Source: Arbacia lixula (lineage: Eukaryota > Echinodermata > Echinoidea > Arbacioida > Arbaciidae). From it: a DNA stretch of 64,000 nucleotides. The stretch's first letter is position 1; the number at the start of each line of letters is the position of its first letter. The notes beneath the pieces were generated by a model, which worked only from the letters and a program-made list of their open reading frames with translations, did not search any database and was not told the origin of the DNA. Below are positions 1,961-64,000 of this stretch, one piece after another. The stretch spans positions 15,746,678-15,810,677 of the forward strand of contig OZ022583.1 in the NCBI GenBank assembly GCA_963669155.1, read 5' to 3'. Position numbers and translations under genes: made by a program.

Positions 1961-3847
1961 TTCCATTTGATGTCTGCCAGAACCATAGGGCCTACATAAA
2001 TGTTGTGTTTATAGCTAGAAAGGATCCACACATGTACTTACACCATTAATTAACCATAAGAATAGCAAATTGAGGTGAAATTCTCTCCTGACATTTATCC
2101 TAAATAACGGTCTTTGGCTAAAATGGATCACCGTGCTAAAATGATTTGAATTGAACTGAGCTGAACATTCCGACCAAACATTCTGTGAGAAATGTTAATC
2201 CTGCTACAGCTGTTTTGTAATTCAATTGGTGTTCACACACCCCTATCATATGTTTATCTGTCCTCATTTAATTCACCTATCTTACCAGGTCTATTCTGCC
2301 ATACTTTGACAAAAGGAGGCAACTTACAAAAGAGACTTTTCTTGTAAGTGAGCAAAATGTGTCTGTCACTTGCATTGCCATCAGTGCAACACCACATCAT
2401 GTTAGATTGAATATCTCACAGCAAGATTAATATCTCTTCTCCAGACTTAGCCTACATGTATATGTAGAGGATGATGGGTATAATCTACGAAAAGATTGCC
2501 AATAGCTCAAATTTGATTGATTTGTCATTTGCTTCCTTTTGTCACAGTAGGACAGTATTGTAGTTGCCAATTCAAATTGACCTTCTTATCAGCCATGTTT
2601 CTTTTACCTCACAGGAGTAATGGAATTGTTTTGTTCAAACCCTAAATGTGATATCAGCGAATTTCAGTCTCTATAGATTATATTCTTTTTCTGGAAAAAA
2701 AAATATTTGTAAAACGTGCATCCCTAAAATAATTATTCTTTCATTCACCCTTCGATTGTTATTTGGGATTACACAATGCTTCCTACATGGCTAGGCAGTT
2801 GATGTTTGGATTTGTGATGTTTTACATCCAAATCCCAGCTGGGCTTTCTCATGCCATTCAAAACACTCAAGGGGGGGGGGGGGGGGGGCCCTCATACAAA
2901 GCGCTTGTCACAATATTTGCCCACACCAGATTATGTTTGCCCACGTATAATTTCTCCCTAATTGAGGGCATGAGTACAAAGAAAAGCCATCAGTTACAGC
3001 TCAGCGGTCTATGGCTGGCCCCCTGCATGCTATTATTGCTTGCACAAACTGCAGTCTTCTGCCCATTCCATTCATGATACTTATTCAATCATTGCATTGT
3101 GAAATTTTGAATGCTATTCATATCATCTAACTTAACCTCTTATCAATATTCGAGGATGTACAAGTTAAGCCAGGCGTGTTTGCTTTTTCAATGATTTATA
3201 GCAGTTTTGCCCATAATTTGATTTATTAAGAATGGATTGTTGCCAGCAAGTCTTCATTATTTAACTCTTGGGAGTGAAAAAGGAAAAAAGTATTTCACGT
3301 GACTGATATCATGCATGATTTGATACTACTAACCTCAATAAAAAAAAATGAAACTTTAGGTAATACTATGTGGTTACATTCTTGTATCCTGTTATGGCTA
3401 CCGAGATATGAAAACAACCCTGATGTTTAAGAGGAAAAACAAACAATGACATGTGAGCGTCAATCATTATTGTAGTATAAAAAACTGGAGGCCTCTTTGT
3501 GGGTTCAAGATTCGACTGGTAAAGTTCACTGGATATAAATAGTGCATTACACTGCAGGGATAGGAAGTGATGGCACTGCACCAAGTGTCTTTGTGTCCTA
3601 TATAATGTGTGAAGTCACTCTTCTGCATTATGTATAGCATGCATGCATTCTATATGTGTGTGTGTTGTGTGTATGGTGGGGCAGATTTATAGCTCAGTGT
3701 GAACAGCTTGCCCAGCGCATGCAGAGATAGCACAGATGGTGATTGACCTGAATTGAGGTCAAGGCTAGGTTTGTTTACATTGAGTCAGCCTGGCCTGGCT
3801 GGCCTCTGAGCCTGCCTGCCTGCTGTAGCATTATAGCCCTGCCTTGC

Positions 3848-15196: not shown

Positions 15197-17122
15197 CTCC
15201 ACTCTTTATCAGTTTGCTTACGTTATTCATTCAGATAGCCTGTTCTCCAGTCCTTTCATCGCACCCCTCAAGATGTTACGTGTTAATCTCCACACAGTCC
15301 CCTGTAATATACTCCCACTGCTGAATGTAATATATCCACAGATATTGTATATATACTCCTAGATTGGATTTCAATTGCGCCAGCTGGATCTACGTGACAT
15401 CATTTCATCGCCCAAGAAATCATGCCACTTAATCTTCTCCATCTCCAGCTTGGGTCATGTATGTCATTTTAAATTCCTCCTCGTACGTGGCCGGTGTGTA
15501 TGTTAACACCGGCTTAATGACCCTTTAATGATTGTCTTCCCTCAGCAACTCAGCCAAGCATGCCTAACGTAGCCCTCATTACGATGTATGGAAGATGCGC
15601 CGTGCATGCCCAAGCACAGCTAGATGTAGCAACTTTTCGATGTGTGTGCTTCACGTCTACGTGAACGCATAAAATGGGTTCCATGAAGAATATTCCTTAA
15701 TATCATGGATTGACATCCAATACATGTTGCGAAGAAATGATCGCTAACGTTTGTTGTCATCAATGTTATATTACCAGTGAGTACTGTAATATCAGCTTAA
15801 AAGGAATCATCATACATACGTACATTGATTGCCATCATTGCATAAGTGTCGATATAGTGTCTGTGCACTGTCACCTCGGAGAGTTCTCACGTAATTTGTT
15901 ACTTTAGTGAATACATAATGAAACAATCTAACAAAGCTATCAGCAAGATCTATCTCAAGTATGTCATGCATTTTGAAAAAAATAATGCAACACAAAACAT
16001 TCTTGTTTTCCATCAAATTTACATTGGTTGAGCCAATTGCCCCTTCGCACCAACACCACTCGATCCAATATTCAGTTGGACCCTTTTTGACCAAATAATA
16101 AACTTCAATTTCGCTGGATTCGCTGAAGAGAACTATGAACTTCTGAAAACCAATCCCCCGCAATATCACCAAATAAACACACTTTGCCTCATGAAAAACC
16201 CTGCAAAATGTCTACAAGAGAACAAGAGAGAGAGAGAAAAACAGAGAGAGAAAGAGGCTTGAGTATTATCTTCTGCTTTCCTGTATTGGGGGGGATATTA
16301 CTTTTGACAATCACGTTGGACTTCGTTTTTTATGAAATTGGTGTCGAAAATTTGGCTGCGATCACACTCCCCTCAAATGTTGTCTGGCGGAAGATGATTG
16401 AATTTGTGATATTTATTCTGGAGTACGGATTCCTCCACATGCCACACGAAGCTCTTGTTATATTTTGGGGGGAATGTACCATCGGAATAAGTATCGAAAA
16501 TCCAAAGGGGAAAAAAAATGGACTTACCAGCCGGCCGGCCGTTTCGTGCTTTGACTAAAGCTGATAGGAATCTTGGTTGAGATTTGTGCAAGCCCCCTGG
16601 TTTTGTGTTTGCCTTTATATTTTTCAAATCAAGTCGGCTGTGGCGTTATCTCCCCCTTGTCTTCGTAATGCCCGTCCCGCCATTAGGATGTTTCCCGTGC
16701 AATCTCAGCACCCTGCCCCCTGCCAATATGTTGCCAATTTGATTGAATTGGATTATATTACTTCATGTGGGGGGTAATACGGCGCTCGATAAATATAGAC
16801 CCTTCTCCAGTCGTGACGTTACCAGACCTTAGGGAGCTTTTTTTTCGGGGGGGGGGGGGCATATTTTGTAAGGGAGGCAGGGGTGGGTGAAGGTGGGGGG
16901 GAGAATTTCAAAGGGAAAGGTGAGAGAGGAACATTTAGATGAGGAATTGAGGCTATGTGGAGTGGGTAACATGCATCTCTGGAAGTCCTTTGATAACACT
17001 TGTGTGTATCTGGTTTGGAGGGGTTTTATCTCTTCTAGTTTTGTCTCTCTTTCTCTCCATCTCTTCTAGCCTTATTGTCTCGCCCACCGGAGGTGAAGGC
17101 GAGACTAAGGGATCCAAATGGC

Positions 17123-17224
17123 GTCCGTCCGTCGTCCGTCCGTCGTCCGTCCGTCGTCCGTCCGTCGTCCGTCCGTCGTCCGTCCGTCGTCCGTCCGTCG
17201 TCCGTCGTCCGTCCGTCGTCCGTC
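17123..17224. repeat. (CCGT)n/(CGT)n microsatellite inside the transposon
   Basis: Alternating CGTCCGT and CGTC units fill about 100 bases between the left hairpin and the first 157-bp unit. On the opposite strand it reads ACGG/ACG, like the microsatellite core of pearl-type elements. The open frames on both strands here are repeat-derived. Confidence 0.95.
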
Positions 17225-17230
17225 ACAAAT

Positions 17231-18356
17231 GTTAAAGTTTACCTGCAAGACTCTCTTATGACCCATAACTTCACATGGGTTGCTTGGATTACAACCTAAC
17301 TTGGGTCATAGATGCACTGGGGGTACCTTCATGTTATGGTGGCGTTGGAGGTCACAGGATAAGGTCAAAGGTCATTTGAGGTCATACGTTAAAGTTTACC
17401 TGCAAGACTCTCTTTTGACAAATAACTTCACATAGGTTGCTTGGATTACAACCTAACTTGGGTCATAGATGCACTGGGGGTACCTTCATGTTATGGTGCT
17501 GTTGGAGGTCACAGGATAAGGTCAAAGGTCATTTGAGGTCATACGTTAAAGTTTACCTGCAAGACTCTCTTTTGACAAATAACTTCACATGGGTTGCTTG
17601 GATCACAACCTAACTTGGGTCATAGATGCACTGGGGGTACCTTCATGTTATGGTACCGTTGGAGGTCACAGGATAAGGTCAAAGGTCATTTGAGGTCATA
17701 CGTTAAAGTTTACCCGCAAGACTCTCTTTTGACAAATAACTTCACATGGGTTGCTTGCATTACAACCTAACTTGGGTCATAGATGCACTGGGGGTACCTT
17801 CATGTTATGGTGGCGTTGGAGGTCACAGGATAAGGTCAAAGTTCATTTGAGGTCATACGTTAAAGTTTACCTGCAAGACTCTCTTTTGACAAATAACTTC
17901 ACATGGGTTGCTTGGATTATAACTTAACTTGGGTCATAGATGCACTGGGGGTACCTACATGTTATGGTGCTGTTGGAGGTCACAGGATAAGGTCAAAGGT
18001 CATTTGAGGTCATACGTTAAAGTTTACCTGCAAGACTCTCTTTTGACAAATAACTTCACATGGGTTGCTTGGATTACAACCTAACTTGGGTCATAGATGC
18101 ACTGGGGGTACCTTCATGTTATGGTACCGTTGGAGGTCACAGGATAAGGTCAAAGGTCATTTGAGGTCATACGTTAAAGTTTACTAGCAAGACTATCTTA
18201 TCACACATAACTCATCACATGTTGCTACAATGGCAATCAAACTTGGATGATGGATGCACTGGGGGCACCTGCATGTTATTGTGCTGTAAGAGGTCACATG
18301 ATAAGGTCAAAGGTCATTTGAGGTCATACATTAAAGTTTACTTGCAAGACTCTTGG
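17231..18356 (+). repeat. Seven-copy 157-bp tandem array with AGGTCA half-sites
   Basis: Unit starts (GTTAAAG or ATTAAAG) fall at 17231, 17388, 17545, 17702, 17859, 18016 and 18173, and a partial eighth unit at 18330. The spacing is exactly 157 each time, so there are no net indels. Units 1-6 are nearly identical, while unit 7 is clearly diverged. Near its 3' end each unit has four AGGTCA half-sites separated by 7, 1 and 4 bases (unit 1: 17349-17354, 17362-17367, 17369-17374, 17379-17384). Only one of 28 is altered (AGTTCA in unit 4). A variable triplet after ATGGT reads GGC, GCT, ACC, GGC, GCT, ACC in units 1-6, revealing a 471-bp higher-order duplication. Confidence 0.97.
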
Positions 18357-18604
18357 TGAAGGCTTCCTAACTTGTGCACAGAATTGTGTGAGCATGTGTG
18401 AGCATTACTGATGTAGATTTAGGCAAACATTACTCATGCACATTTATGCAAATTTATTCAAAGTCACTATTTTGCACCTGATTTTGATGTTGTCTGTTTA
18501 AAGTTGCTTATTTGTTTGTTTCAGTTTTCTTTTGCGTAGCAACGGAGATCGCGATATCTCTGGTTATTTTCGCAAGTGGGCGAGACACAATATTGCTAAT
18601 GCCT

Positions 18605-18816
18605 TGTTCTTTCTCTGTCTCTCTTCTCTCTGTGCCTCCCTCCTCTCCCTCTTCCCTCTCTCCCCCATCTCTCCCCCATCTCTCCCCTCTCTCCCTCTCT
18701 CTCCCTCTCTCTCTCTCTCTCTCCCTCTCTCTCCCTCTCTCTCCCTCTCTCTCCCTCTCTCTCCTTTTCTCTCCCTCTCTCTCCCTCTCTCTCCCTCTCT
18801 CTCCCTCCTTCTCTCT
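18605..18816. repeat. (CT)n / (CCCTCTCT)n pyrimidine tract
   Basis: From 18679 to 18816 the plus strand is uninterrupted pyrimidine, mostly CTCTCTCC octamers. It begins about 20 bases after the right end of the 1.5-kb transposon. Ser/Leu/Pro frames on plus and Arg/Glu frames on minus are repeat artefacts. Confidence 0.95.
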
Positions 18817-27144: not shown

Positions 27145-27690
27145 TTTTTATGCACAACTTACGAAACTCACAAAATGTCACCCCACCCCCCTCTCAACCA
27201 GATTACATGGTCTCGGCTTGAAGAATTACCTTCCTTGAACATTTAATATAAACACTTGATAAACCAAAGTTCTTTCCTTCTAGCAAGAGCCGCCGTAATC
27301 CCATACGTAATGTAGCCGTTATGGTGAAATAATCTTCTAGATTCATGCTATACATTTAAACAATTCAAAAGATGTTTTCCTCTTATTCAGATCCAGATTA
27401 CATGATCGTCAGCTTGAAGAATTGCTTTCCTGAAAATTTGATATAAACACTTGATAAACCAAAGTTCTTTCCTTCTAGCAAGAGCCGCAATAATCCCGTA
27501 CGTAATGTAGCCATTATGGTAAAATGATCTTTTATACTCAAAGCTCACCTTACAAAAATCACAAAAAGGTTTTCCCCCTTCATCCTGATCTAGATTACAT
27601 AGTCTCAGCATGAAGGATTGCATTTCATGAACATTCGACAAACCAAAGTCCTTTCAGCAGAGCAGAGCTGCTGTAACAATCTCTTATTTC
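27145..27690. repeat. Three-copy tandem repeat, period about 195-197 bp
   Basis: GATTACAT(G/A) landmarks fall at 27201, 27396 and 27593. The first two copies share long blocks: AACACTTGATAAACCAAAG, TTCTTTCCTTCTAGCAAGAG and CGTAATGTAGCC. The third is more diverged and truncated at its 3' part. On the minus strand the units encode related peptides (HNGYITYGI, then AALARRKELWFIKCLY), and one 84-codon open frame spans copies 2-3. Because in-frame stops occur in copy 1 and between units, I treat the frame as a property of the repeat, not a gene. Confidence 0.88.
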
Positions 27691-42980: not shown

Positions 42981-45107
42981 ATTTTCTTATATTGATATGC
43001 TCTTGTTAAAAAATAATATTTAAAAAAAAATGTTTTTTAATATAAATAAATTACAACCCTGGCTGCAATTCTTCTTTCTTGCTTTGTCTTTAATAAATCC
43101 CTTCATAGAAGATGTGGGTAAAAAAAAAATCTTGAACCTTATTAAAAAGAAAAACTCTCTCCTGACTTCTCCTCCTCTTCTTCCCCCTCGCAACTCAATA
43201 TTACTTCCTCCCGACACATACACATAGAGAATAATCCACCCTTGGGTGTGTGTGTTTGTGTGTGTGTGTAATCTGCATTCCAGCGTCTGATTAGTCCTGA
43301 AAACTAAGCCCGGACTTCATTAGTTTGCAATTGTGGCCAATTTGGCATTGCTACATCTGATCAAGGCTGCTACACGTCTTGCCCGGAGTGATATGAGAGT
43401 TCATTCCACAAGGACGGTGCATGTTTTTTGTGTGACCTGCACAATTCTCATGCTGGAAATTTTACAAGCAATCATACTTTCTGTTGCCAATTTGAGGTTC
43501 TTGGAGCATGCATTCATGATTTGTATTTTACTGTCTGTGTTGGAGTAAACAATTTCAATTCAATGAATTCACAACTCACCTTTCTATCTTGGAACTACTG
43601 GGGGAAAAAAAGTATAAAAATAGAAATAAATTATGTTGAATATGTTTTGCAGTACTACACACTTGATCGTATTTTTGTAAACATTTAAATACCCAACAAA
43701 TGCAGAGACTCACTTGATCTCTGTGAATCAATCTGAATTGCATTTAAAGCTGAGTGCACGATTTCAAATAGAATTGCATACTCAATGGAAATGCACTGTA
43801 AGAGGCTCTTATTTCTAATTGCATTTGTAGTAGTTCAGAATGGACTGACGGTTGATACAAGGTTTCTAGAGTAAACCATCGCTCTCAGATGTGTCCTAAC
43901 TGAACTTTCCTACTGGGAAAAACGATTATTGCGAGATGAGTTCTCCATGAGGCAAGATAATCTGTAGAGCCCTCGTAATTGAAGATTAGCCTTTCTTTAT
44001 GATGACTGATTGCCTGGGGATTTCACTTAGTGCAGGTACCATAAAGAGGATAGAAGTGCTTATCAAGGAGGATGGAGCAGAGAGTGTGGGTGGAATGGAA
44101 GGCAGGCGTTGAGTAGCTGAGGTCTCTTTTATCAAGCGATTGTGTTCAGTTGATGCTCGACTCGTTCAAAAGCTGATCAGGAGAAGTGGTTGGGATGATT
44201 TCAGCTGAGGAGGGTAGACCACTGATGGATGTAATGTAATTCAGCCTCAATTTACCCGGAATCAGGCCCAGATTTAGTTTCAATTTGGAGATTGATCAGT
44301 CTCGAATAGGGAAAGGAATACCACAACATGTTTAGAAACAAACGGCTGTAATCGAAGCTCTCCTCTAGCGGGGTTCTTTCCCGGCTGTAGCGGAAGATTG
44401 GAAGGAGCAGACGCTAGGGAGGTGAGGCAAGACCCGATAGAGAGAGGGGAAGCGGTGGATTGAGCCCGAGATAGAGAATAGAGCGCGCTCAGTGGATGCC
44501 AATCTAAATTGGTAGGTTAATTATTTCCCCCAGAGTGTGCGAATTCAATTTGGTGTCAATCTGCGATCCGGGCTAAGTTAGATTACGACTTGATCAGATT
44601 AGCCGCGCACTGGGGCGCTCACTTGTTTGTTACCTGCCTCAAACAATTTGGGTTCCTGTAACACGATGTAAATAATGCAGCGCTCTGTCCGAGTGGCCGC
44701 TGCAGTTGTTGTTGTCTCTGTCTCTCGCCTTGTTTGACGGTGAAGGTGATGTCACGCATGTAGCGGCGGGGAACTAATGGGGGAGACTGGGTTGGGGGAA
44801 AGCGTGAGGAGATCAGTGGTAATTGGCAGCGATGGGAGTGGTGAGAGGGGTGATGATATTGTCTGTGCCCATATTCTTATCACCCTATTACAAGAGGGGG
44901 ATATCAAATGGATGTTGTGTGTGAGCTGTGAGAGTAATGGGTGCGAGTTTGCGCTCGTGTTGCCTGGTATGTAATGCCCGCTGACTTTCAGGGTTGCACT
45001 TGATTTCTGTTAATTTGCATTCTATCATCTGACAAATTAAATTTGGGGTGAAATGTGATGCTGATTGGCATATTTCTGTTCTCTCCCCCCCCCCCTCTTT
45101 TCTCCAG

Positions 45108-45690
45108 GAGATCCTGTGCCAAACCTCAACTCATCCACGACGCAGCTCAACGGGGATACGAGCCCCTCCCCCCGGGATCCAGCCGCGCCTCCTTCTACCG
45201 GTCACCAGTATCCTCCGGCTAGCATCATCGTCGCCAAGACCGAACCCGTCGTCGGGAGCAACGCTCCACCCCTGCCGACACCCATCACCGCCACACCCAC
45301 TTCTACCACTACTACCACAACCACGCCCACTGCCATCCCTCCTGCCCATAGTCTCAGCCACAGCGGCCACAATGTCATCCAGCCGAACCCCGCCCACCAT
45401 GCCAACCTGGCTGCCACGCCCGGCCCCCAGCAAGGCCTAGGGGTGCCCCTCCACCCCCCTCATCATCCACCGCCGCATCAACGCCCAGGCCCCCCAGGCC
45501 AGGGCCAGGACCGCGCCCCTTCCGCCCAGGAGCCCGGCCGACCGGAGCCCCACCACGCCCCCTTCGAGAGGAAGGAGAAAGGGGAGAGGGAGCGGGAGCA
45601 ACAGCTCCACCTCCATCGGGAGAGGGAGCGGCAGAGATCTTTGGACAGGGAGCGAGAAAGCAGCTTCAACAAGGCACCCGGTTGGACCAG
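45108..45690 (+). CDS. AUTS2-like: AUTS2-like gene, proline-rich internal exon
   Basis: This 583-base exon runs from a strong acceptor (C/T tract, TTTTCTCCAG) to the donor CCAG-GTATGG. It enters in phase 1 (GA completes a codon) and leaves in phase 2 (AG). The frame begins DPVPNLNSSTTQLNGDTSPS and is Pro/Ser/Thr-rich, with a seven-Thr run, His-Pro stretches (HPPHHPPPHQRPGPPGQ) and a charged 3' part (FERKEKGERERE, HRERERQRSLDRERES). It ends NKAPGWT. Arg-Glu repeats and Pro-rich linkers are typical of AUTS2-family proteins, which are largely disordered. Identity rests on exact phase agreement with the next two, better conserved exons. A related frame shadow on the opposite strand (45131-45433) is not a gene. 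Confidence 0.9.
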
Positions 45691-48600
45691 GTATGGATTC
45701 CCCTTACTTCCCATTTAACCCTCGCACTCCCAGAGGCAATCAACTCTGTTGGAGTTAACATTGGACTCTGATGGTTGGTACTCAGAAGATGAAACATAAC
45801 ACTCACATAGATGCAGTTTGCCGCTGTTTCATTATGTGCTTGCTATCATGGCAATTGTGCACACTGATAACAAAAAATAATGGAGATATTAGCACCGCAA
45901 ACTGCATGCCACAAACAGCAGTATCTAATGGCTTCTGTTTGAACATTCATATATTCTATAACATTGTGGGCTACAAAAGCATGGATGGACACACTTCCTG
46001 ATTGCCAAGTATATGTTCTAGCCACTTTTCTTATCAGATATCATGAGATTGCATCAAAGTACTTTCCGTTTCATATTCGTTGTCATCTTATATGTTATTT
46101 GGCTCTCCATCCATTAACCCTGTACCCAATACTTTGTTGCCCGTACTATTGTCTTTCACTACTATTAACATTCTTTCTTGTGAATTTCATTTCTGTTCTC
46201 TTAAAAAGGTGATATATTTTACAAACAGAGATTTGAATTGTTTTCTCAGACTGGCATGTTTCTTAGTGTCTGTCCTCTTGTGTATTAAAAGAAATGAAGC
46301 TTCATGACTGCTTAACCATTCTGCCTATCATGGGGACTGTACCTGATGATTAAGTAAAACTGCTCTCATCGATTTCATCATTGACAAATGAAGACAAAAC
46401 ATAATCTATATTGAGGAGAGGGCGTAGTGTTACAGGAGTGGGACGATGCACTGACAATTGTGAGAAAGCTAGTTTTCCTTTCAGAGCTCTTGAAAACAGA
46501 ACGACAGTTCTTCTCCAATTTATCACCAGGCCTTGAAGTTGATCCTTGTGACTGTTCATTTCTGGTTGTGAGTAGCAATAAAGACCTCTTGAACTGAAAG
46601 GCAGAAGGAAGTCTGTGCAATCAGATTCACATTTAGGGTAACATGGGGCAACTGTGAAATGTATAAGTTTGACCCCATGATGGCAGCATACTAGAATGGG
46701 AGGATGTGGGGAGCATGTGTTTTTTCCCCCCTCATTGGATCATCGAGAGGGGAGCTCACTCGCATCCTTCATATCGTCAATGAGTCACGCTTGATAGATG
46801 TCGACTTATTGAAAGACATCTTGATACATCTACTCGTTTAAATGTCTCCTAGTGTAAACAGGAGTAAAGTGCATTTCAATCCATTCCGTGTGATGTCATT
46901 TTTGTCCTTGAGTTGGACCTCATATTGAAGATGGGATGCATAAAATGTTTACAGACACAACAGACAGTCATTTTGATCAGAATGGAAGCTGTTAGTTCAA
47001 AATATTCAAAGTAGAAATTTTTCATGTATGCTAGAAATCATATTTTTATGGTCGAGAATTATTCAGTATTTAGTTGCTTGCGTATTAAAAAAAAAAAAAA
47101 TTCACAGGATTTCTTCTGTTCTTGTAAACGTCTCATACATAGTCAATGTTCCCATGCTTTGAAACAGAAGGAAAGGCACGCAAATTATCAAAAGGCATGG
47201 TTTATATTTAGGATGACAGTAAGAATTTAAAACAAGCACTGTTGAAGCCAGTTAATTTAAAAATGAGCTTGTCATTTGAGCAAAGCTGTTGATAAAAACA
47301 GTGAAAAGGATAACAAGAAAAATATGGATTTGTGAGCGACTTGTCAGCGAGCTAAAGGGATAATTTACCACGTCTGAGATTAGTGAAGTGTACCAGCTAA
47401 CAGCATTAATCAGCATCTGTCTCATAGAGTGTAAGGGACTCTTAGGCATCGGTTAGTCTCAAGTGCTTGTTCCATTTTCGTTAGAAGTAGCACTTCGCGG
47501 AAGGAAAGGGGTCATGGCATAATAAAGCCCCCACAAAGAGATGGAAAGTGAAACGGGAGAACTATTTATTGGCTGTTGAACTTCATGTTTACTCTGTAAT
47601 GATCATCTTTGTGATTAATGTTTTGAGTTGCTCTATCACTTATGTGGGTACTTATTCTTATTGAGGTGGTTATTAGAATACAATAGGAAATGTTAAGTGT
47701 GTCCTGTAGTTTTTAGTTTTGCTTCATAATGAGAATCGTTTATTGAAGTGGTACTTCCTTATGTTATAAAGACAGAGTACTGCGTAGATCACAAGACGGA
47801 GCATATACTTGCTTTACTTTTTCAGTACATTTGTTTTTTGTTTAGGTTAGCACATGTATGAATCTCCCTCCCACTCACCCTGTGAAGAATGAATATGACA
47901 TCTGCGTACAATATGTGCAGAAACATGAAACTTCACAAAATTGTCTTATTGTTGGCTTGATCTTCCAAAACTTTATCAATCTGCGTTTGAAGAATGTGTA
48001 CCTATACAACGTTTCTTTATAGAGTTTCAGAGTAGATATTTTTGTGTGTGAACACCAATTTAGGCATATGATAATTCTTTATTGAGTTACAGGATAATTT
48101 TTTCTTGTGAGTGGATACTCTGTTCACAGTACATCGATTCTTTATGGTACGTTTCTTTATCGAGTTTGGGTATAACTTTGTGGACATGCTGTGAGAGCTT
48201 GAGTCTCTCAGAGCCCCTCCAAACCACCAACCCCATCCATGAGCGGTGGTAGCACCTGTGAGCGTGACTCAGGCCTGTGGAACCCCTCATCCATTACCAC
48301 TCTGATTCACCCAGCAGGTGGAGCTAGGGAGGGGCAAGCCCGCACCCCCCTTCTCTTCTTCCCCCATCCAACACCCCTACAGACTAATTGAGGGCGCTAA
48401 TTAGCGGGGAGATTAACGGGCCAGTCTGCAACCAAAACGCACCCCCCCCCCCCATTTCGTCCATCCTCTCTGTATTATGTGTGGAGAGATAATCTCCGGC
48501 AATTAGTGGTGGGACGGGATAGTTCGCGCGGCCATAAGAGGGGAATGCCCTTGTGTGTCATCCTTCTCTTCCTTATTTACAACAAATTAGTCGAGACACC

Positions 48601-62515: not shown

Positions 62516-63176
62516 TTTTCCTCTTTTTGTACTGCTTTTAATTCATACAAAGTGTACTTGATAATAGCTGAGGTGTCCATTTTCAAAATGAATTGATTGA
62601 TTTGTATATTCATTTCATGAAAGTATTGCTCCCCAGATAATATTTCATAGTCGTGAGGTAGTCTGAAAGGTAAACACTTGATAATGAAATATGATGCATT
62701 GCTAATAAATTAGAACTGCAAAGTTTGTACAAAAATTTAGAAGTATAGAAAAAATATGAATGATTATTGCAGCTTCTCTTGTGTTGAATGGATGCAGTAT
62801 ATTTGTGTAATGTGACATGAAAATGTTGTAGCTAATGTATGAATGAACACATAAAAACTTAACTCCTGCAAACCATGTTTGATTTATGCATCATTAATTG
62901 TTCTTTCCACATTGGTATATATATAACTTTCCCCCACTTAGTGCCAAACAAGGAAAGATTAATTCTTTCATCCTCTAACATGAATTTATCTGATTACTGT
63001 TGCTTATATTTATTCACGTATGTTGTTAAGTTATTAGCCCCGCTCATAAGCAGATTAACTTCTTTCAGGTCCATACCCTAATTTTATGTTTGTACATACC
63101 GGGTATGTTGTATTTTTGTTTTTATAATGGTTAAATAAATAAAAAGATTGCATCTTCTTTCTCTTCCCATCTACAG

Positions 63177-63655
63177 CGAGTGGACCCCCGCCGCCTACAT
63201 CAGGCCGGACATCCCAGCCACCCCCTCCCCCAACTCCCCACTCCCACCATCAAGGGCCTGGGCCGCAGCCACAGCAGCCCCCGCCGCCACAGCCACCCCA
63301 CCCCCACCCCCAGCCGTCGCCCCAACAGCAACACCCCCAACAACAGCAGCAGCAGCAGCAACACCAGCAACAAGAGCTGCTGCGGCAGGAGCTCAACAAC
63401 CGCTTCCTGGCGTCGCACAACCCCAGTATGTCGGTGGGGCCCCCTCCGTACCTGCGCCAAGAGACCCACATGCACCAACACATGCACCAACACCAGCACA
63501 CCCACCAGCACTCCTTCCTCCCGCCGCAGGGGGCCGCCGCCGCCGCCGCAGCTGCAGCAGCCGCCACCGGCCTGGTGCCCAGCCCCGCCGCCGCCACCAC
63601 CGCGCCGCCGCACGTGGTGCGCGACGCCGAGAGGCTGCGACAGCAGGCGCTTAGG
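63177..63655 (+). CDS. AUTS2-like: AUTS2-like gene, exon with [18 protein letters not shown] and the HX repeat
   Basis: This 479-base exon runs from acceptor CTTCCCATCTACAG to donor CTTAGG-GTAAGT. It enters in phase 1 and leaves in phase 0. It reads [18 protein letters not shown], a Pro/His/Gln-rich linker with a poly-Gln tract ([12 protein letters not shown]), [26 protein letters not shown], the histidine-X repeat [20 protein letters not shown], a poly-Ala run and [11 protein letters not shown]. Human AUTS2 has ILRQELNTRFLASQS, GPPPYLRTE and [15 protein letters not shown] in the same order, so family membership is very likely. In vertebrates the HX repeat is linked to P300 recruitment and gene activation. 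The Pro/Gln insertion before LLRQELN is longer than in human. The exon is very GC-rich compared with its AT-rich flanks. Confidence 0.95.
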
Positions 63656-64000
63656 GTAAGTACCGTCTCTCTCTGTCTCTCAATGTCTCTCTATATTTCG
63701 TTTTGTGTTTATTTGCAGGCTTACAAGAGCTTTATTGTACGGTTTCGGGAACAATACAACGTAATGAGGGCCACCACAGACAACTCAATTTTGCCACAGT
63801 TCTAGTACGACTAGAAATGTGACTTATTACTCAAATGGAATGACAAGGTCCTGCGATTCAGCCAATCATTTAACTGATTAGAACGTGTCGTCTGTGTTGG
63901 CCTTTTTATCCTTTATTTTGTCAATATTATGATAGTCAAAATGTAAGTCATAGGAGTAATTCAGGACCAAGGATTTTTGAAGCAGAACTTTATCACTATT
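63656..64000 (+). other. Start of the next intron, or in-frame extension, at the window edge
   Basis: GTAAGT at 63656 starts an intron by normal rules. The reading frame of the previous exon nevertheless stays open through 50 further codons to a TAG at about 63805. The rest is AT-rich with no other feature, and the window ends before the conserved C-terminal half of the gene. Confidence 0.6.
63719..63760 (+). CDS. Possible 42-base exon after a 63-base intron
   Basis: TTTTGTGTTTATTTGCAG is a good acceptor ending at 63718, and AAC-GTAATG is a weak donor at 63761. The segment is 14 codons, phase 0 at both ends, reading [14 protein letters not shown] in frame with the preceding exon. I recall no AUTS2-family counterpart. 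A 63-base intron is very short beside the other introns here, so this is more likely chance or an alternative 3' end. Confidence 0.15.

Follow-up and report, generated by a model that had tools for sequence, protein, structure and literature searches.

A very probable HINE-type transposon family with receptor half-sites in its central repeats, represented beside an apparent AUTS2 orthologue in Arbacia lixula

Transposons that carry transcription factor sites are ordinary in kind, examples being Alu DR2/HNF4 sites, the heat-shock elements of Helitrons and ISX, itself a Helitron. In the available parts of the Alu reports (PMC1785376, PMC3252374), 90% of the genome's consensus DR2 sites lie in this repeat, and for HNF4 the idea of a receptor sink is brought up. 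The Helitrons of Caenorhabditis are described as holding more than half of their genome's copies of the heat-shock element motif, in overlapping tandem sites with demonstrated binding of HSF-1 (PMC6927752, in excerpt), and ISX disperses factor sites in Drosophila miranda, again with binding demonstrated (PMC4384637, in excerpt).

The structural plan described for HINEs consists of a subterminal inverted repeat (subTIR) set back by two to four bases from the 5′ terminus, a 3′ palindrome and insertion between flanking T residues (PMC4067079, in excerpt). In the oyster Crassostrea gigas, Cg_HINE elements have a left module with a subTIR, a complementary inverted repeat (IR) and often a GTCY/GTCC microsatellite, followed by central repeats mostly of 140–180 bp and a right module with the 3′ subTIR and palindrome, and they insert into T-rich DNA; some otherwise dissimilar monomers have two conserved segments in common (PMC7492417, in excerpt). 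Among the publications listed in literature searches none was, by title and beginning of abstract, on receptor direct repeats in Helentrons, which is not proof that none exists, and motif-pair scans of viral and prokaryote sequence collections gave 0 matches.

We analysed a window of 64,000 nucleotides from A. lixula, which contains an element of 1,536 bp whose features are given in Table 1. We consider it very probable that the element belongs to an abundant family of HINE type, in which non-autonomous Helentrons carry central repeats resembling a satellite, a reading held jointly with the drift of single copies and the DR1 core shared between repeat families that are described below. Its anatomy and boundaries agree with the published HINE plan. 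Its span follows from comparison of copies, which places the ends at TTNT before TGTCTCGCC on the left and at GCCTTGT on the right; loci L001–L060 supplied 55 distinct junctions at the 5′ end and 53 at the 3′ end, in copies that had themselves been found with these ends. The four bases before the 5′ subTIR are T in 55, 54, 45 and 54 of the 55 junctions, and the base preceding them is mixed.

Table 1. Positions of the element and its parts in the window
Feature	Position	Strand	Remarks
Whole element, very probably HINE-type (non-autonomous Helentron), 1,536 bp	17072..18607	+	Ends where copy similarity stops
5′ terminal T-rich tetranucleotide	17072..17075	+	TTAT in this copy; mostly TTTT in the family
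5′ subTIR TGTCTCGCCCAC	17076..17087	+	12/12 complementary to 18576–18587
Left IR GGCGAGAC	17098..17105	+	Complements part of the 5′ subTIR
GTCC-type microsatellite	17122..17224	+	Found by TRF; located as in oyster Cg_HINE elements
Central tandem array	17231..18329	+	Seven 157-bp units: unit 1 near first type, units 2–6 middle type, unit 7 last type
Half-site block, unit 1	17349..17384	+	Four AGGTCA, DR7-DR1-DR4
Half-site block, unit 2	17506..17541	+	
Half-site block, unit 3	17663..17698	+	
Half-site block, unit 4	17820..17855	+	AGTTCA as third site (17840–17845)
Half-site block, unit 5	17977..18012	+	
Half-site block, unit 6	18134..18169	+	
Half-site block, unit 7 (last-type unit)	18291..18326	+	
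Start of eighth unit, 24 bp	18330..18353	+	Box of these 24 bp opens and closes the array
Right flank module (tail)	18354..18575	+	
3′ subTIR GTGGGCGAGACA	18576..18587	+	12/12 pairing with 17076–17087
3′ palindrome CAATATTG, 8 bp	18588..18595	+	
3′ end CTAATGCCTTGT	18596..18607	+	T opens the flank in 41/53 junctions

The characters of a HINE seen here are paired subTIRs (12 bp, within the 11–15 bp usual for HINEs), a left IR, a microsatellite followed by 157-bp central repeats, and a T-rich insertion site. HINE-Mo, DINE-1 and other HINEs have the same subTIR and T-flank features and a 3′ palindrome, to which the 8-bp palindrome here may correspond (PMC4067079, in excerpt), and the modules of Cg_HINE match those of the window element, with a different host and sequence and with monomers compared by description (PMC7492417, in excerpt). 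The distance from the 3′ subTIR to the end is 20 bp here against about 38–60 bp in the mite HINE (PMC4067079), and a left IR complementary to the 5′ subTIR, present in oyster, Drosophila and the window element, is absent from the mite HINE as described in the available part of the source. As a single strand, the 3′ palindrome folds no more stably than shuffled sequences (z 0.12).

The genome contains 43 Rep matches, one of which, on C7, carries the Helentron-type Rep signature VEYQARGSPHIH, the published Helentron Rep form (PMC4067079, in excerpt). A score of 128.4 bits is common to 20 of the 43 matches, including that on C7, and this identity suggests recent activity. At C7:23919700-23927399 (L091, L092, L095) there is a large Helentron frame of 3,278 aa with a GSPHIH Rep motif and, by eye, an OTU-like stretch. 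It was considered as autonomous partner; neither element end occurs in the stretches read around it, which stop short of 3.5 kb of its interior, and from these stretches, at one of the 43 Rep matches, no autonomous element ending in this way emerged.

TRF reports a 157-bp unit in 7.2 copies at 17231–18353, with AGGTCA at unit positions 119, 132, 139 and 149 and hence spacers of 7, 1 and 4 bases, as had been claimed from the letters of the window. The unit offers consensus half-sites at the right spacing for DR1 (AGGTCA-A-AGGTCA) and DR4 (AGGTCA-TTTG-AGGTCA). The accompanying count was also correct: 27 of the 28 half-sites in the array are exact, the exception being the third site of unit 4, and all four are intact in unit 7, in which 29 of 157 positions depart from the seven-unit majority, one of them at a spacer base of the 36-bp block and none inside the half-sites. 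The 28 sites do not represent 28 independent events, since their regular placement reflects tandem copying of one unit. Across the whole window AGGTCA is not enriched (47 occurrences against 38 expected, a number reached in 11 of 100 shuffles). A second tandem repeat at 27198–27635 (195-bp unit, 2.2 copies) lacks half-sites.

The array had been placed in an intron of a chromatin-regulator gene. The only match in the genome to the Auts2 domain (PF15336) lies downstream on the same strand at G000:C8:15842069-15842143, 31.4 kb past the end of the window, so that the element adjoins an apparent orthologue of AUTS2, a chromatin regulator; its position within an intron is likely, not proven. It looks like an insertion in or upstream of this orthologue, in T-rich DNA. 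Two long open frames on the + strand, 45065–45718 and 63143–63802, have the look of exons of an AUTS2 orthologue, and the latter contains HQHTHQHSF, which we take to resemble the AUTS2 histidine stretch. Pfam scans of the exon-like frames in the window gave nothing useful.

Copies are dispersed in large numbers. A unit query of the genome gave 644 first-look candidates and a tail query (18340–18592) 908, with 40 scored in each case. Exact four-half-site blocks number 9,862 genome-wide against 0 for a reversed control, and the 23-base DR1-DR4 segment with at most two mismatches occurs 11,674 times, again with 0 for the reversed pattern. The suggestion of a transposon that carries half-site arrays through the genome was right, as the block counts show. 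The 60 loci examined reduce to 53 distinct elements once 7 duplicates are removed. The number of units varies between sampled copies, and the 53 elements have 2 to 11 box intervals, some of them truncated where the locus ends.

The original prediction read the intact half-sites of the diverged unit 7 as conservation of the sites relative to the rest of the unit. This does not hold within the family: of 23 complete copies, 19 close with a unit of the unit 7 type and 4 lack it, it is present in 41 of the 53 elements, and its intact sites therefore count as one old event. The comparison of substitution inside and outside the sites gives a similar answer. We counted private variants, present in one element only; variants found in two or three elements, one of which falls in a half-site, were placed in neither class. 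Units not spaced at exactly 157 bp or with more than 15 changes from their type were dropped, and the first units of L001–L030, being the query match, were set aside. In 223 middle units the half-sites have 12 private changes against 12.7 expected (p 1.0), the chance rate; the figures are 0 against 2.1 in 21 first units (p 0.15) and 3 against 5.4 in 42 last units (p 0.35). An earlier rate estimate for middle units (0.0034 per site in half-sites, 0.0270 in the rest) was discarded, because unit types and shared variants had not been kept apart in it.

Depending on unit class, a unit carries roughly 0.001–0.008 private changes per site. All loci were chosen as best matches, so that the sampled copies are young, and intact sites in young copies need no selection. 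A control segment in the box, with as many fixed letters (23) as the four-site block, occurs intact 10,979 times in the genome, against 9,862 for the block; part of this gap arises because a fourth unit type, described below, passes the control and fails the block. When up to two mismatches are allowed, the block segment is slightly ahead (11,674 against 11,042), but last-type units there use up both mismatches of the control. With private changes at the chance rate and a block no more intact than the control, there is no sign of selection on the copies.

Differences between unit types bear on older constraint. The first type differs from the middle type at 5 positions and the last type at 27. 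The fourth type, followed by a 34-bp extra piece, opens some arrays, as in two elements among L086–L090 (L086, minus-oriented, 865; L089, 1179), and five intervals of 191 bp occur among the 100 control-segment matches listed. Compared with the middle type it shows 34 differences, of which 5 fall in the block. One lies in a half-site: ATGTCA replaces the second half-site of the block, which is the first of DR1, so that DR1 is imperfect in this type. Thirteen variants are common to at least four elements, 12 in middle units and 1 in last units. When the four types and the shared variants are pooled, half-sites take 1/48 variable positions compared with 15/132 private changes (p 0.07), and the block 5/48 compared with 20/132 (p 0.48). 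A test that had appeared significant (0/36 in half-sites, p 0.04) was rejected, as it omitted one shared variant and the fourth type. The sparsity of between-type changes in half-sites is not significant, and within the window family there is no significant lineage-level constraint.

A scan of 96 sequences for clusters of three half-sites outside the window family led to two loci. One (L054, minus strand, about 2345–3144) is an element of a second, HINE-like family, whose ends are different (GGGGCTCCGCCAC, GGCGGAG) and which has degenerate repeats after a fashion of its own and a GTCY microsatellite; the other (L017, minus strand, from about 2880) is a third repeat with a period of about 168 bp and GGGTCA-A-AGGTCA in its units. 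This third repeat sits shortly past the 3′ end of a window-family copy. Window-family units align to both other families with local scores of 53–74, compared with 34–43 for the maxima of 200 letter shuffles, over most of the unit. In an alignment of six rows (three window-family unit types, the second-family consensus and two third-family units) the longest invariant run is GGTCAAAGGTCA, the DR1, over 12 columns. The core common to the three families is RGGTCA-A-AGGTCA. Of the DR7-DR1-DR4 layout, DR1 thus recurs in the other two repeat families, in which the DR7 and DR4 spacings were not encountered.

Two more second-family elements (L096, L097), chosen from DR1 matches, gave 18 units in three elements. 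These units were excised by the DR1 segment with at most 8/25 mismatches, and the sample is therefore biased towards units that keep DR1; within it, mean column identity is 75% and that of DR1 97%, which ranks first of 167 windows. Taken element by element, the windows as good as DR1, itself included, number 1, 6 and 6. Conservation extends past DR1 into adjoining bases (AATGAACTTTG). In L096 and L097 the order of units is similar by eye, and the second-family repeats differ strongly within each element.

When another segment was used to locate the second family, all 16 units in three elements had a DR1 with at most two mismatches. A terminal stretch of L054, located in the same way, exceeded this limit. 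Of 12 matches to this anchor elsewhere, one is a window-family unit and 11 are 4–6 mismatches from DR1, which we read as chance or decay. An old-looking second-family copy in L020 appears to have lost DR1. Genome-wide, the second-family DR1 segment occurs 9,283 times and a comparison segment of equal length (26 bases) 5,079 times, the latter selected with the profile already known. At L058 (2650–2800) there may be a further element with GTATCC/GGATAC inverted ends and the motif CAAATTTGGTA, and no DR1. In the sequences compared, DR1 rather than DR7 or DR4 remains the apparent core common to the families, which were met through half-sites or DR1 and so carry that bias.

The perfect DR1 AGGTCANAGGTCA occurs 28,986 times in the genome (reversed pattern 144) and the DR2 AGGTCANNAGGTCA 366 times (reversed pattern 112), a ratio of DR1 to DR2 of 79 to 1. 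These counts mirror copying and do not represent independent origins. Among the first 100 DR1 places listed, by position, 46 are in window-family copies, 46 in other clusters and 8 alone.

The intact half-sites and the shared DR1 can be explained in several ways. Maintenance by the host, with selection keeping single copies as receptor-binding arrays through which nuclear receptors regulate nearby genes, would fit the perfect consensus DR1 and DR4 and the 27 intact half-sites out of 28, and transposons that supply factor sites are a precedent (PMC1785376, PMC3252374, PMC6927752 and PMC4384637, each in excerpt). We nevertheless regard it as very unlikely, given half-sites that acquire private changes at the chance rate in middle units, a block no more intact than the control and copies young enough to be intact without selection. 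Plain common descent, with DR1 surviving by chance or gene conversion from one ancestral repeat, functionless and made prominent by the route of its finding, is a serious possibility that we would stop short of calling probable: the families align over most of the unit, between-type differences are also few in its first 27 bases (4/48), and the families were chosen through half-sites. It accounts less readily for a DR1 window that ranks first of 167 over 18 units, and for the presence of DR1 within two mismatches in all 16 second-family units located through another segment.

The two remaining explanations give the repeat itself a role. Direct repeats of 7 bp (AGGTCAA) might be places where slippage or recombination occurs, through which arrays are built and kept homogeneous, the likeness to receptor sites being incidental; a doubled AGGTCAAAGGTCAAAGGTCA with 7-bp steps is present in the second family and unit number varies between copies, yet the array is bounded by the 24-bp box, not by DR1, and each window-family unit has one DR1 only, and we find this reading rather unlikely. 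Retention of DR1 for the benefit of the element, through a host nuclear receptor that affects germline accessibility or transcription so that lineages keeping DR1 leave more copies, appears unlikely. No invariant run across the three repeat families is longer than DR1, which comes first of 167 windows in the second, is among the best 1, 6 and 6 windows per element, and exceeds DR2 79 to 1; against this, the families were met through half-sites or DR1, conservation spills into the adjoining bases, and one window-family unit type has ATGTCA for the first DR1 half-site.

Under the reading that we prefer, an abundant HINE-type family with drifting copies and a shared DR1 core, a Helentron Rep/helicase supplied in trans would move the element by rolling-circle replication, as its family membership suggests, and tandem units would come and go, perhaps through slippage or through unequal exchange between the 24-bp boxes at either end of the array. 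The AGGTCA block would have arrived with an ancestral central repeat. Single copies drift with no detectable selection on their sites, and such drift gives no sign of the host keeping the sites as a class; constraint, if any, would be on the lineage of elements. Were it real, the DR1 core would most likely benefit the element, for example through a recruited DR1-binding receptor (of HNF4, COUP-TF or RXR type) thanks to which copies stay open in the germline or early embryo, a step that we consider unlikely.

The window element can thus be set beside the transposons with which we began. HSF-1 binding to Caenorhabditis Helitrons (PMC6927752) and binding to ISX (PMC4384637) have been demonstrated, the former through another motif, whereas here the sites are known from their motifs; the Alu sites (PMC1785376, PMC3252374) are not in a rolling-circle transposon and do not form tandem arrays, unlike those of the window element; and some otherwise dissimilar Cg_HINE monomers (PMC7492417) likewise have conserved segments in common, two in number. 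Because maintenance by the host predicts constraint on single copies and benefit to the element predicts constraint on lineages, the case offers a clean test between host and element in the matter of transposon factor sites.

It is conceivable, though we think it distinctly unlikely, that the Helentron-type central repeats in this genome are an old superfamily built on DR1 and kept across families by the action of a host receptor, with most of the perfect DR1s, in tens of thousands, lying in arrays that would act as a receptor sink or as a ready response network. A search of this genome by motif for HNF4, RXR or COUP-TF targets would mostly return repeat copies unless these were masked. If the DR1 core is truly kept by Helentron-type lineages, a group of rolling-circle transposons would be tied to the hormone-receptor system of its host.
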